Part shown: one piece after another, positions 3,632-52,385 of the stretch
Position numbering within the stretch: position 1 is the stretch's first letter
Layout: each line of letters starts with the position of its first letter
Assembly (NCBI RefSeq): GCF_000745005.1
Contig: NZ_JQNB01000001.1
Coordinates: forward strand, 1,977,501 to 2,041,500
Length of the DNA stretch: 64,000 nt
DNA from: Luteibacter sp. 9135
GTDB lineage: Bacteria > Pseudomonadota > Gammaproteobacteria > Xanthomonadales > Rhodanobacteraceae
Direction: 5' to 3'
Notes under the pieces: generated by a model
The model's input: the letters and a program-made list of their open reading frames with translations, nothing else
Told to the model about the DNA's origin: nothing
The model's database searches: none
Translations under genes and position numbers: made by a program

Positions 3632-4330
3632 TTATTTGCCCTCGAATCGCACCAGCTCCAGCGTCAGGTCGCCACCGTCCTTCTGCGCCAGCTTGACCGG
3701 CACCGGATATTTCGCCGGCGCATACCAGGCGTTGAAGCCGCGGTCGGCGTCGGTCCGGTCGACGCGCACGGTGTCGAACGTGCCCGCGGGCACCTTCACT
3801 TTCTCCTTTCCCGACACCTTGAACTGCTGGTTCTCCACTTCCTGCTTCACCGCGACGGGGAAGCTGGCCTGCTGCTTGCCATCGCGCAATGCCACGCCCA
3901 GGGCCAGGGGCAGCGTATTGCGCTCGATCATGCCCTGCGCCGCCGGGTAGCTGAAACTCTTGCTGTTGTCCTTGACTTGCACGGTGTTGCCCTGCACGGT
4001 CATGTCGCGGGTCTTCTGCTTGAAGGACGCATCCAGCTGGTAGTGGTAGCTGACCACCTGAGGCACGGAGCCAGCCCAGGTGAACCGCGAGGTTTCCGTC
4101 GAATTGGCCCCCAGCGCCGCGGCCAGGCCCGCCGTACCCTTGGTGATGTTCGTGTATTCGTACTGGCCGTTGCCGGCCGCTTTCAGCACGATGGTGGCCT
4201 CGCCAAGCGGACTGCCGCCCTGCAGGACGTTATAGGTAGCGGTGAAGGACTGCGGCACGCTCGCGGCGAACGCGGCGGCGGGCAGGGCGAGGGCCAGCGC
4301 GAAGCCGGCGCGGATCAGTGGGGTCTTCAT
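3632..4330 (-). CDS. DUF3108 family exported protein
   Basis: 232 residues with a Sec signal peptide (MKTPLIRAGFALALALPAAA, cleavage probably after AFAA). The mature part is a beta-rich domain of about 200 residues beginning FTATYNVLQGGSPLG, typical of DUF3108, including VPAGTFDTVRV and AWYAPAKYPVPVK. Biochemical role is not known; the protein should be periplasmic or outer-membrane associated. The start is placed at the ATG that begins the signal peptide rather than the longer open frame. It lies downstream of purN on the same strand, separated by a REP-rich gap. Confidence 0.85.
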   Translation of the reverse strand: MKTPLIRAGFALALALPAAAFAASVPQSFTATYNVLQGGSPLGEATIVLKAAGNGQYEYTNITKGTAGLAAALGANSTETSRFTWAGSVPQVVSYHYQLDASFKQKTRDMTVQGNTVQVKDNSKSFSYPAAQGMIERNTLPLALGVALRDGKQQASFPVAVKQEVENQQFKVSGKEKVKVPAGTFDTVRVDRTDADRGFNAWYAPAKYPVPVKLAQKDGGDLTLELVRFEGK

Positions 4331-4437
4331 GGTTCCGATTCTAGCCACGGCGGCTGAATGCGCGTCGACGCGCCCACCCGGCGAACCACAAGGCGCCCGA
4401 CGCCCCATGGCCGCGCCCGACGCGCCGGTTGGGGGGG

Positions 4438-4467
4438 GTAGGAGCGCACGCACGTGCGCGAACCCTC
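4438..4467 (+). repeat. REP element
   Basis: GTAGGAGCGCACGCACGTGC followed by GCGAACCCTC. The inner GCGCAC-GCAC-GTGCGC palindrome gives the hairpin. It continues into a type Y extension (GAGGCCATGC, then CACAC, then GGCGTTTCC). Confidence 0.85.
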
Positions 4468-4621
4468 CATATCACCTACCGCGAACGAGGCCATGCCCCA
4501 CACCCAAGCCGGCGTTTCCGACCGCAAAACAAAGCCGATTGCTCTTGTGTTGTGGCCTTTGCTCTTGGCGAAAAACGCCCGCATCTCCCTACGCAAGGCT
4601 TCATTCGCCACAGGCCAAGGT

Positions 4622-4651
4622 GAGGGTTCGCGCACGTGCGTGCGCTCCTAC
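4622..4651 (-). repeat. REP element
   Basis: Reverse-strand GTAGGAGCGCACGCACGTGC plus GCGAACCCTC, identical through the 30-nt core to 4438-4467, with an extension reading GCGAATGAAGCC. Forms an inverted pair with that copy. Confidence 0.85.
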
Positions 4652-4716
4652 GCCAAGTGCCGGGGATACGGGGTTATACGGCTGGGGAGACGGGTTAGTC
4701 GACCAGGAATATGGGG

Positions 4717-5358
4717 TTAGACGGCCAGGGCAGCTGGAGTAAGCGGCGATGTCAGCAGCTGCCCGTCGAAGACGGGCGCGCCTTGCCAGCGCAGGCGGCC
4801 GGCGGCGATGGCGCGGACGACGGCAGGTAGCAGCGCGTGCTCTTCCACCAGCAGGCGCTCGGCCAGGGAGGCTTCGGTGTCGTCCGGGCGCACGTCGATA
4901 CGTGCCTGCGCCACCACCGGGCCACCGTCCAACTCCGCCGTGACGAAGTGCACGCTGGCGCCGTGCTCGGCGTCGCCCGCGTCAAGGCACTGGCGATGCG
5001 TGTGCAGGCCGCGGTGTTTCGGCAGCAGGGAAGGGTGGATGTTGATCGCGCGGCCCTCCCAGGCAGCGACCACGGTAGCGTCGATGATCCGCATGTAGCC
5101 GGCCAGCACCAGCAGGTCGGCGCCACTGTCCGCCACGTGGCCGAACAGGGCGCGGTCGAAATCGGGGCGGGTGGGGTAGTCGCGCGGATTGAGCGCGAGC
5201 GTGGGAATGTCCGCCTCACGCGCCACGGTCAACGCCCCAGCGCCGGCCTTGTCGCTGCCCACCAGGACGAACGTCACCGGAAGCCGCGCGGCGATCAGCG
5301 CGGCGAGGTTGCTGCCGCGCCCGGAAGCGAGCGCGGCGACACGCAGGGGGCGATCCAC
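4717..5358 (-). CDS. purN: PurN, phosphoribosylglycinamide formyltransferase
   Basis: 213 residues. Transfers a formyl group from 10-formyltetrahydrofolate to GAR in purine synthesis. Seen: substrate loop ASGRGSN near the start, and the catalytic set Asn106 and His108 in INIHPSLLPKHRG and Asp144 in AELDGGP, matching E. coli numbering. The start is a GTG giving VDRPLRVAALASGRG, seven bases after the purM stop; the longer frame into purM is rejected because family proteins begin here. It is coupled to purM. Confidence 0.95.
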   Translation of the reverse strand: MDRPLRVAALASGRGSNLAALIAARLPVTFVLVGSDKAGAGALTVAREADIPTLALNPRDYPTRPDFDRALFGHVADSGADLLVLAGYMRIIDATVVAAWEGRAINIHPSLLPKHRGLHTHRQCLDAGDAEHGASVHFVTAELDGGPVVAQARIDVRPDDTEASLAERLLVEEHALLPAVVRAIAAGRLRWQGAPVFDGQLLTSPLTPAALAV

Positions 5359-17200: not shown

Positions 17201-17279
17201 GACGCTGTGTGTTTCTGGGTTTTCAAGGGCTCGCCTTCGGCATCGCATTTGGCCTTGGAGCCTTGGGGCTCTAGGGCAA

Positions 17280-17515
17280 GAGCCGGCGGCTAGCCCCCTC
17301 GGTGCCACGCCTGCGGCGACCCGCTGAGGAAGGGCCGCTGTCGCGGCCGTATTCTTATGGCCCTTCGGGCCCGGGTCGGGCTTCGAACGGGGATTTCCGA
17401 CTCGACATCCTGTCTCGCGGAAATGGCCGGCCGTCCTGGCCGGCCCCCTACGGGCCTTGTCCGTTCGAAGCCCTCGCCTGCGGCTACCGGCCCCGAGGGG
17501 GCTACCCGCCGGCTC
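17280..17515 (+). repeat. Structured repeat arm A (about 235-bp family)
   Basis: Begins GAGCCGGCGG and ends CCGCCGGCTC. It differs from arms B and C in the outer stem (TAGCCCCC with GGGGGCTA instead of TGCCACCC with GGGTGGCA), with both sides changed so pairing is kept. The inner stem reads ATTTCCG / CGGAAAT where arm C has ATTTTCG / CGAAAAT. The loop CCCTACGGG replaces CCCTTCGGG. Confidence 0.85.
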
Positions 17516-17592
17516 TTCCAACGACTGAGGCAGGTTGTGACGCGAGCGGTCGCAGACGTGCAGGGTATGGCGTCGCCGCTTCGTTGGTTTTT

Positions 17593-17614
17593 CGCCCACA
17601 TCGTGGGCTCCTAC
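17593..17614 (-). repeat. REP element in locus 1 (left)
   Basis: Reverse-strand GTAGGAGCCCACGATGTGGG followed by CG. The palindrome is GCCCAC-GAT-GTGGGC: both sides of the stem differ from the GCGCAC/GTGCGC version, a compensated change. It leads into spacer X. Confidence 0.85.
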
Positions 17615-17712
17615 GCGGGAGCGCATGGCGTTTCTGCGGGATGTGGCGTTTTCCACGCGTCATGTGCCGGGCAGCTCGTGGCGCCCTCAATGCGCGATGT
17701 GTTGGTTGTTGT

Positions 17713-17741
17713 AGGAGCCGACGATGTCGGCGAACCCTCAA
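17713..17741 (+). repeat. REP element in locus 1 (right)
   Basis: GTAGGAGCCGACGATGTCGG then CGAACCCTC. Stem GCCGAC/GTCGGC, again compensated relative to other REPs. It leads into spacer Y (GCGAATGAAGCCATGC and onward). Confidence 0.85.
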
Positions 17742-17848
17742 CCCTTCCAATGCGAATGAAGCCATGCGCAACACGCAAGCAAGCGTCCCCAGCAACGAAG
17801 CGAAACCAGGCTCTTCGCTCTCCCCACACGCAACCTCAGTGCTGGAAA

Positions 17849-18083
17849 GAGCCGGCGGGTGCCACCCTCGTGGCCGGTAGCCGCAGGCGAGGGCTTCGAA
17901 CGGACAAGGCCCGAAGGGGGCCGGCCAGGACGGCCGGCCGTTTTCGCGAGACAGGAAGTCGAGTCGAAAACCCCCGTTCGAAGCCCGACCCGGCCCGAAG
18001 GGCAATCAATAAACGGCCGCGGACGCGGCCCTTCATTGACGGGTCGCCGCAGGCGTGGCCACGAGGGTGGCACCCGCCGGCTC
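17849..18083 (-). repeat. Structured repeat arm B (about 235-bp family)
   Basis: Inverted relative to arm A. Read on the reverse strand it follows arm C through the outer stem (TGCCACCC with GGGTGGCA), but its inner stem is GTTTTCG / CGAAAAC, another paired change. It ends 58 bp before the stop of the convergent gene at 18141. Confidence 0.85.
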
Positions 18084-18140
18084 TTGCTCCACGGCCAAAG
18101 GTTTTTGCTCGGAAGTCAGGTCGCCTACGGGTACAAGCGC

Positions 18141-51474: not shown

Positions 51475-51497
51475 ATGGGCCTTGGGCTGTGGAGCAA

Positions 51498-51732
51498 GAG
51501 CCGGCGGGTGCCACCCTCGGGGCCACGCCTGCGGCGACCCGTCAAGGAAAGCCGCTCCGCGGCCATGTATTGATTGCCCTTCGGGCCGGGTCGGGCTTCG
51601 AACGGGGATTTTCGATTCGCCATCCATGGCTCAGCGAAAATGGCCGGCCGTCCTGGCCGGCCCCCTTCGGGCCTTTTCCGTTCGAAGCCCTCGCCTGCGG
51701 CTACCGGCCCCGAGGGTGGCACCCGCCGGCTC
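51498..51732 (+). repeat. Structured repeat arm C (best-formed copy)
   Basis: Predicted folding, numbered on this copy. P1: 51498-51524 with 51706-51732, 27 bp perfect. P2: 51551-51563, GCCGC-TCC-GCGGC. P3: 51576-51586, GCCC-TTCG-GGC. P4: 51593-51605 with 51678-51690, 13 bp perfect (GGGCTTCGAACGG with its complement). Inside P4: P5, ATTTTCG (51608-51614) with CGAAAAT (51635-51641), capped by GCCATCCATGGC (51619-51630); P6, 51642-51662, GGCCGGCC-GTCCT-GGCCGGCC; P7 near 51659-51673, CCCTTCGGG. Base pairing was read by eye. Confidence 0.85.
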
Positions 51733-51841
51733 TTTCCAACGGTGAGGTTGCGTGTGGGAAGAGCTAAGAGCCGGGTTTCGCTTCGTGGGTGGGAACGCTC
51801 GCTTGCCTGCTTTGCATGGCATCGGTCGCCTTAGGTATGTC

Positions 51842-51871
51842 GAGGGTTCGCGCACGTGCGTGCGCTCCTAC
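51842..51871 (-). repeat. REP element in locus 2 (left)
   Basis: Reverse-strand GTAGGAGCGCACGCACGTGC then GCGAACCCTC, the same core as 4438-4467. Leads into spacer Y' (GCGACCGATGCCATGC and on to CACACGCAACCTCA). Confidence 0.85.
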
Positions 51872-51925
51872 CCCCCAGACGGCGGATCAGGCATTGGATA
51901 TGCCAGAACCTGCCCTACCCCTTGG

Positions 51926-51949
51926 GTAGGAGCGCACGATGTGCGCGAA
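51926..51949 (+). repeat. REP element in locus 2 (right)
   Basis: GTAGGAGCGCACGATGTGCG then CGAA. Leads into spacer X', which corresponds to spacer X of locus 1 on the other strand. Confidence 0.85.
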
Positions 51950-52024
51950 AAGCCAACAAAGCGGCGACGCCACACCCTACACGTCTGCGACCGCTCGCGT
52001 CACAACCCACCTCAGTCTTGGAAA

Positions 52025-52262
52025 GAGCCGGCGGGTAGCCCCCTCGGGGCCGGTAGCCGCAGGCGAGGGCTTCGAACGGACAAGGCCCAAAGGGGGCCGG
52101 CCCGGACGGCCGGCCATTTTCGCTGAGCCATGGATGGCGAATCGAAAATCCCCGTTCGAAGCCCGACCCGGCCCGAAGGGCAATATATAGACGGCCGCGG
52201 AGCGGCCTTTCCTCAGCGGGTCGCCGTAGGCGTGGCCACGAGGGGGGGCTACCCGCTGGCTC
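52025..52262 (-). repeat. Structured repeat arm D
   Basis: Inverted copy, ending with GGCTC. On the reverse strand the outer stem is the TAGCCCCC type of arm A on its 3' side, with two extra C on the 5' side; inner stems P5 and cap are as in arm C. The P7 loop is CCCTTTGGG, the one copy that does not keep a TNCG loop. Confidence 0.85.
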
Positions 52263-52385
52263 TTGCTCCAGGCGTCAACGCTCGAAAGCCAAACGCGATG
52301 CCGAAGGCGAGCACCCCCCATCGCGCGATGCTACAACACGTAGCAGGGGTGGTTGCGACCGCCCCGCCGTGCGTTAATTGTGGGA

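Follow-up and report, generated by a model that had tools for sequence, protein, structure and literature searches.

Repeats of the REP/REPIN kind are extragenic and palindromic, occur in inverted pairs and go together with RAYT (Y1) transposases; a REPIN unit is a short REP hairpin with a GTAG head that is moved by the RAYT. Among structured RNAs, the account of Weinberg 2010 (PMC2864571) presents TwoAYGGAY (RF01731) as a probable RNA that is probably not cis-regulatory, with examples from the human gut, gamma-Proteobacteria and Clostridiales, and Gardner & Eldai propose, from motif matches, that it binds CsrA (PMC4333381). SELEX gave RUACARGGAUGU as the consensus for CsrA, the GGA lying preferably in the loop of a hairpin (PMC4347634), and 5'-CANGGANG is given as an Rsm motif (PMC6849547). 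In the literature searched on CsrA sponges and repeats, on Luteibacter repeats and on TwoAYGGAY, we found no description of TwoAYGGAY as a dispersed or paired repeat, nor did the literature yield an experimental test of the 2014-15 CsrA proposal.

The repeat analyzed here was encountered in a 64,000-nucleotide stretch of DNA from Luteibacter sp. 9135 (the window), whose genome is a single contig of 4,485,268 bases. It has two neighboring hairpins with GGA loops, and it is dispersed through the genome, mostly as inverted pairs.

Inverted pairs in the window and in the genome

The first-pass annotation of the window reported four copies of a repeat of about 235 bp. All four are present at the places given, and they form two mirror-image pairs of one unit of about 240 bp. 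The second unit of each couple is inverted, so that the two units converge, across a spacer of 329 bp at site 1 and of 288 bp at site 2. The features are as follows, with strands given for the predicted RNA and cores defined by R1, a covariance model of the core domain.

17277..17517, minus (predicted RNA strand): unit of pair 1, A class outer stem (blastn and fold)
17374..17477, minus (RNA): core domain, left unit of pair 1 (R1 match, given by R1 on plus)
17518..17846, no strand: spacer of pair 1
17847..18086, plus (predicted RNA strand): unit of pair 1, G class, inverted (blastn)
17887..17990, plus (RNA): core domain, right unit of pair 1 (R1 match, given by R1 on minus)
51478..52371, no strand: composite element of site 2, comprising left unit, spacer, inverted right unit and outer flanks (the extra DNA is bordered by TG on either side; relative G018 lacks the element in the corresponding gene gap)
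51495..51734, minus (predicted RNA strand): unit, G class outer stem (blastn and fold)
51589..51694, minus (RNA): core domain with two GGA-loop hairpins, left unit of site 2 (R1 match, given by R1 on plus)
51609..51662, minus: TwoAYGGAY match below threshold, 33.0 bits against a gathering score of 43 (Rfam covariance model)
51735..52022, no strand: spacer between the site 2 units, with REP-like GTAGGAGCGCAC in both directions
52023..52265, plus (predicted RNA strand): unit, A class outer stem, inverted (blastn)
52063..52168, plus (RNA): core domain, right unit of site 2 (R1 match, given by R1 on minus)
52095..52148, plus: TwoAYGGAY match below threshold, 26.4 bits (Rfam covariance model)

Two blastn searches, each scoring 40 candidates out of 94 and 89, respectively, place the repeat at a minimum of 29 loci in this genome. 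These loci hold 50 near-full-length units, 42 of which make up 21 complete pairs. The R1 model, built on the strand as the first-pass annotation wrote it, which is opposite to the predicted RNA strand, identifies 52 cores in the same genome, including a core at 4292586 that belongs to none of the 29 loci.

In 20 of the 21 complete pairs, one unit carries the TGCCACCC outer stem and its partner the TAGCCCCC stem; the remaining pair (L065) is interrupted by other DNA at one end, and no class can be assigned to that end. The annotated three-pair difference between the outer stems TGCCACCC/GGGTGGCA and TAGCCCCC/GGGGGCTA therefore does not represent independent change in each copy: it is a single left-end/right-end difference that is inherited with the pair. 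Because nearly all complete pairs hold one end of each class, the composite, rather than the single unit, appears to be what gets copied. Among neighboring core pairs in the loci that we fetched, a few of them fetched twice, 40 of 44 are convergent, two are divergent and two are tandem, while 105 loci have one core only within the stretch fetched. Departures from the standard layout occur in relatives. The consensus for G001 (14 of 20 loci used) has a left unit that retains the outer stem without the core, two cores being present at three G001 loci. For G015 the consensus, drawn from 15 of the 20 loci L325-L344, has another large hairpin, ACCGGGTTGGCCCTTGGGGCC...GGCCCCAAGGGCCAACCCGG, in place of the left unit; it is conserved on the RNA 5' side, upstream of the remaining unit.

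REP-like sequences are found in both directions in 13 of the 21 spacers of complete pairs in Luteibacter sp. 9135. The outer flanks have peculiarities of their own: short microsatellite-like tandem repeats (GACCGCGA, TTGGAGCC) lie directly outside the outer stem (for example L089 at ~2798-2850, L066 and L061), and GGCTCGCCTTCGGCATCGCG recurs in many outer flanks, where it makes up a further inverted repeat around some composites.

No transposase gene of its own was found in the element. Long inserts in spacers and units were considered as a possible autonomous mobile copy; apart from a 0.54-kb insert in L083, they proved to be ordinary insertion sequences, identified by Pfam on three translations and otherwise judged by translation likeness. 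Inserts of L063 and L085 encode an IS110-type transposase and both sit in REP-like spacer sequence; integrase-core inserts, taken as IS3 type, are of two kinds (L077 and L082a; L067, L074 and L082b). The IS3-type copies at L067 (~1280-2522), L074 (~1285-2525) and L082 (~3855-5091) occupy about the same outer-stem position, as if it were a preferred target. The genome has a single match to a Y1 (RAYT-type) transposase (L143, C1:1697503-1697778, minus strand), which is flanked by REP-like GTAGGAGCGCACGATGTGCGCG.

The element comes and goes between related genomes. At site 2 the gene gap measures 967 bp in Luteibacter sp. 9135 versus 70 bp in G018; 21 of 22 relatives are readable at this site, with units in seven (G001, G003, G007, G010, G011 and G022, and remnants in G019) and none in 14. 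In G009 (L130), counted with these 14, the site 2 composite seems to have collapsed to a short palindrome of the outer arms only (GTGCGTCGCAAGAGCCGGCGGG... and its mirror). At site 1, also readable in 21 of 22 relatives, two (G010 and G011) have units, and those without comprise 16 with gaps of 1-82 bp and three with longer gaps. Because G018, the best match by flanking genes, is empty at both sites while others are filled, gain, loss and repeated targeting look the same in this comparison.

Gene contexts were assigned with a rough ORF caller. The 93 loci of relatives comprise 67 classified single-core entries, seven unclear ones and 19 multi-core loci set aside; among the 67, 30 lie between convergent genes (one place, L264 = L365, being counted twice here), 36 in tandem gaps and one between divergent genes. 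The 29 loci of Luteibacter sp. 9135 divide into 12 tandem, 11 convergent and six divergent, some of these calls being doubtful (at L062 and L066, for instance, the called ORF enters the element). A rule that the element lies behind genes is thus clear only in the relatives and not in Luteibacter sp. 9135. In the 36 tandem gaps, the GGA strand has the sense of the genes in 15 and the opposite sense in 21, and the idea of a sense-strand 3'-UTR element is unsupported.

Fold, covariation and strand

The units at 51495-51734 and 17277-17517 have minimum free energies of -171.5 and -166.7 kcal/mol (z of -11.1 and -9.6), and none of 200 shuffled sequences folds as well. In the lowest-energy fold of the whole composite, the two units pair with each other (238 bases) and not each alone, which we count against the reading as a CsrA-decoy RNA set out below.

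A nested fold with compensatory changes had been proposed for the unit from the four copies. This proposal is borne out by alignment A1, whose 41 cores come from Luteibacter and from one further genus in its family. RNAalifold finds changes on both sides in 24 of 33 predicted pairs, and a supplied structure has 25 of 34 pairs so changed. The cells changed on both sides number 194, compared with 49.2±6.0 in shuffled alignments and 16-28 in six slid structures. Paired cells amount to 94.5% versus 79.6±0.6 shuffled, and the covariation score is 0.395 versus 0.130±0.008, with 0 of 500 shuffles as high; a measure of further pair types gives no difference from shuffles (50 versus 49.8). The slides are the better control because related sequences can beat shuffles without structure, although the structure itself was partly derived from the A1 sequences. 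The reported change in the inner stem (H1) is also real: its pattern fitted 49 of the 50 near-full-length units of Luteibacter sp. 9135, with six perfectly matching arm pairs (47 units) and two mismatched units. Covariation therefore supports a structure that is maintained in a folded nucleic acid.

Only wobble pairs carry information on the strand, since Watson-Crick pairs are silent. On the strand used by the first-pass annotation we compared G·T with A·C, the latter corresponding to G·U on the other strand, and counted one event per genome or locus. The 50 units of Luteibacter sp. 9135 alone have no bias (28 to 28), whereas wider sets favor A·C. An alignment of 103 units, with only nine of those 50 and with four weak opposite-strand overlaps removed beforehand, gives 42 to 78 events, and its wobble cells are most unequal in the two GGA hairpins (1 to 8 and 2 to 18). 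In A2 (93 rows minus 10 duplicates, leaving 83 distinct cores) the events are 7 to 45, with a binomial P of 7e-8 that would apply only if events were independent, which copies from the same genome are not. In A3 (112 rows minus 12 duplicates, leaving 100 distinct cores), which has some loci in common with A2, they are 12 to 32 (P 0.004). Because R1 was built on the strand of the first-pass annotation, any alignment bias should run the opposite way.

Wobble occupies 58 of 2811 cells in A2, and other mismatches are commoner (77). Such scarcity of wobble, outnumbered by other mismatches, is unusual for a plain RNA, and maintenance at the DNA level consequently retains some plausibility. Our initial reading as single-stranded DNA, based on the scarcity of wobble and on the even split of 28 to 28, is nonetheless weakened because the wider sets gave a strand asymmetry. 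Of the two possibilities named in the first-pass annotation, folded RNA or single-stranded DNA, the former is favored, on the strand opposite to the one annotated, as suggested by the wobble pairs, the GGA loops and the TwoAYGGAY matches.

GGA hairpin loops and the relation to TwoAYGGAY

On the predicted RNA strand, GGA is present in loop 1 of 79 and in loop 2 of 74 of the 83 distinct A2 cores. In A3, which reaches other families, GGA occurs in 99 and 80 of the 100 distinct cores and CA(N)GGA in 94 and 64; 17 of the 20 cores that lack GGA in loop 2 come from G001, which contributes 19 distinct rows. Loop 1 reads ACAGGGATGT in seven of the 100 rows. The distance from GGA to GGA is 24-25 nt in 69 of 79 sequences measured, in five of which the script caught one place twice. 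The CA(N)GGA loops look like CsrA/RsmA-type sites. A CsrA gene is present in 39 of 41 genomes searched, with a single gene in each of 23 Luteibacter genomes. We put the chance that the repeat RNA would bind CsrA at about even. In other genera (L259, L294, L297, L305 and others) a hairpin of the type GGTTACTTTTCTTTGGGCACGCAAAGAAAAGTGAC often stands 3' of the core; none was seen in the Luteibacter copies read.

A simple count of sigma-70 hexamers on the RNA 5' side of 48 units of Luteibacter sp. 9135, with the units of L065 and L068 that have no end class left out, gave no promoter signal, the best matches being 7.0 and 6.9 of 12 compared with 7.3 and 7.1 in shuffled sequence. The absent promoter signal and the absent sense-strand bias both count against a CsrA-decoy RNA.

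Rfam at the gathering score has no match anywhere in the 64-kb window. With permissive filters, positions 49-107 of the TwoAYGGAY model align to both site 2 units on the predicted RNA strand (E of 0.0034 and 0.11); no match at site 1 was found among those listed at E up to 10. Throughout the Luteibacter sp. 9135 genome, each of the 19 TwoAYGGAY matches with E no higher than 0.1 lies within an R1 core and on the strand opposite to that of R1, and 33 of 52 cores are without such a match; the best score is 33.5 bits, under the cut-off of 43. The same search (E up to 0.1) was positive in 12 of 18 genomes and missed G001, G015, G018, G261, G304 and G471, although R1 matches exist there. The gathering score is reached in two of the 18, G084 and G248. 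All eight above-cutoff sites of G084 coincide with R1 matches on the opposite strand, and none of the 14 in G248 falls on the seven R1 matches listed (10 candidates scored by R1). Full-length alignments (1-168) occur in relatives and in other families, and none of 14 control genomes has a match. RF01731 belongs to clan CL00106, as does RsmW, whose own matches are weak, scoring 25.7-28.8 bits against a cut-off of 52 at three loci in other genera.

The two adjacent hairpins with GGA-type loops that characterize TwoAYGGAY are present in the repeat. The first-pass annotation did not recognize the family. To judge from these model matches, the core is divergently related to a named one, TwoAYGGAY, and is not an accepted member by threshold, with no copy in Luteibacter sp. 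9135 at the Rfam score. Its identity as a TwoAYGGAY-type RNA is very probable.

The distribution of the repeat is broad within the family. By blastn, with 12 candidates scored per genome, it occurs in 19 of 22 other Luteibacter genomes and in 23 of 61 genomes overall, Luteibacter sp. 9135 included. R1 finds it in 125 of 197 sampled genomes of the family and in 22 of 26 genera, with no match in Luteibacter G012 and G013, and 16 family genomes chosen for having matches carry 1 to 61 copies each. In a sample of the class, 19 of 369 genomes are positive, again counting Luteibacter sp. 9135, with rough E-values such that weak matches may be chance; the two-hairpin layout is also present at L289-L294, all outside the family (the weak L296 and L302 were left out). 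Phage and plasmid records gave no match in a distant blastn search with one unit, and viral contigs gave 0 matches to one exact pattern.

Explanations for the repeat

We propose, with about equal confidence for and against, that the repeat is an RNA element with two CsrA-type hairpins that has spread as an inverted pair and perhaps acts as a distributed CsrA decoy. During transcription across the element, the unit read in the GGA sense would fold and might present its two loops to a single CsrA/RsmA dimer. Given the mirror-image arrangement, transcripts entering from either direction would include one unit in this sense. The approximately fifty copies, with the element spreading as an inverted pair, could then form a scattered CsrA decoy or provide local docking sites for CsrA. 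That they constitute a genome-wide sponge is a tentative suggestion from sequence features, and we think it doubtful. It is similarly speculative that a mobile repeat, selfish or domesticated, scatters Csr/Rsm decoy hairpins family-wide and sporadically in other Gammaproteobacteria, the mirror pair working in whichever reading direction and the copy number setting the level of free CsrA.

Alternatively, the repeat could act at the level of DNA, as a very large repeat of REP/REPIN-like type. Its hairpins, when single-stranded, would be substrates of a host-encoded nuclease or transposase, and the conserved loops and stems would serve for recognition of the DNA, with any RNA role incidental. The retention of a convergent layout in different genera (40 of 44 neighboring core pairs), the presence or absence at the same gene gaps, a divergent-gene position in just one of 67 entries from relatives (six of 29 being called so in Luteibacter sp. 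9135), the REP-like sequences both ways in 13 of 21 spacers together with one Y1 transposase gene, and the rarity of wobble on both strands are all consistent with such an element. Its mobilizing protein is presumed, however, and it fits poorly with a wobble asymmetry by strand that peaks in the two GGA hairpins, at 8 to 1 and 18 to 2 cells, and with the match to an RNA family on the GGA strand. Moreover, in the 14-locus consensus of G001 the composite is repeated though its left unit has no core, and thus spread does not require both ends to carry one. We judge this explanation unlikely, yet by no means negligible. 

Hairpin copying, also raised by the first-pass annotation, would make the repeat a neutral selfish palindrome in which template switching at hairpins keeps the arms complementary, with no selection on the fold. 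The six arm pairs of stem H1, mismatched in only two of 49 fitted units, speak for such a process, as does site 2 of G009, where the collapsed palindrome consists only of outer arms, and the rarity of mismatches of all kinds is compatible with template-guided correction. Template switching does not account for the conserved loop GGA (79 and 74 of 83) beside covarying stems, for the 24-25 nt spacing (69 of 79), for strand-biased wobble or for matches in 22 of 26 sampled genera of the family, and we regard it as improbable. That the units are stand-alone Csr/Rsm-type small RNA genes like RsmX/Y/Z, every one with a promoter of its own, is very improbable: the predicted RNA begins at the spacer side in both units and the shared spacer could hold divergent promoters, but the promoter-like signal does not exceed that of shuffles, and some fifty copies are unlike RsmX/Y/Z-type genes.

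Several genomes each offer dozens of natural variants of the repeat, which, with its favored strand, its nearly fixed spacing and its copy numbers of 1 to about 60, makes the CsrA proposal directly testable. If the decoy reading is true, dispersed repeats can serve as regulatory sponges, a role for which we found no description in the literature searched.

The hairpin pair itself is already known; what is new is its copy number, its inverted pairing and its presence or absence between species. Like TwoAYGGAY, the repeat has two neighboring GGA-loop hairpins on the same strand. Unlike TwoAYGGAY, it scores below the Rfam cut-off, its fold includes a 27-bp outer stem, a side arm and a third, short hairpin, and a genome carries about fifty copies, most of them in inverted pairs. 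With the sponge RNAs CsrB/CsrC and RsmX/Y/Z/W it shares GGA in hairpin loops, whereas it differs from them in being dispersed, in having two sites per unit core and in the promoter signal, which was not found. Like REP and REPIN sequences, it is extragenic, palindromic and arranged in inverted pairs, with REP-like sequence in the spacer; in contrast to them, its unit is about ten times longer and adopts a multi-branched fold, and its link to a RAYT is putative.
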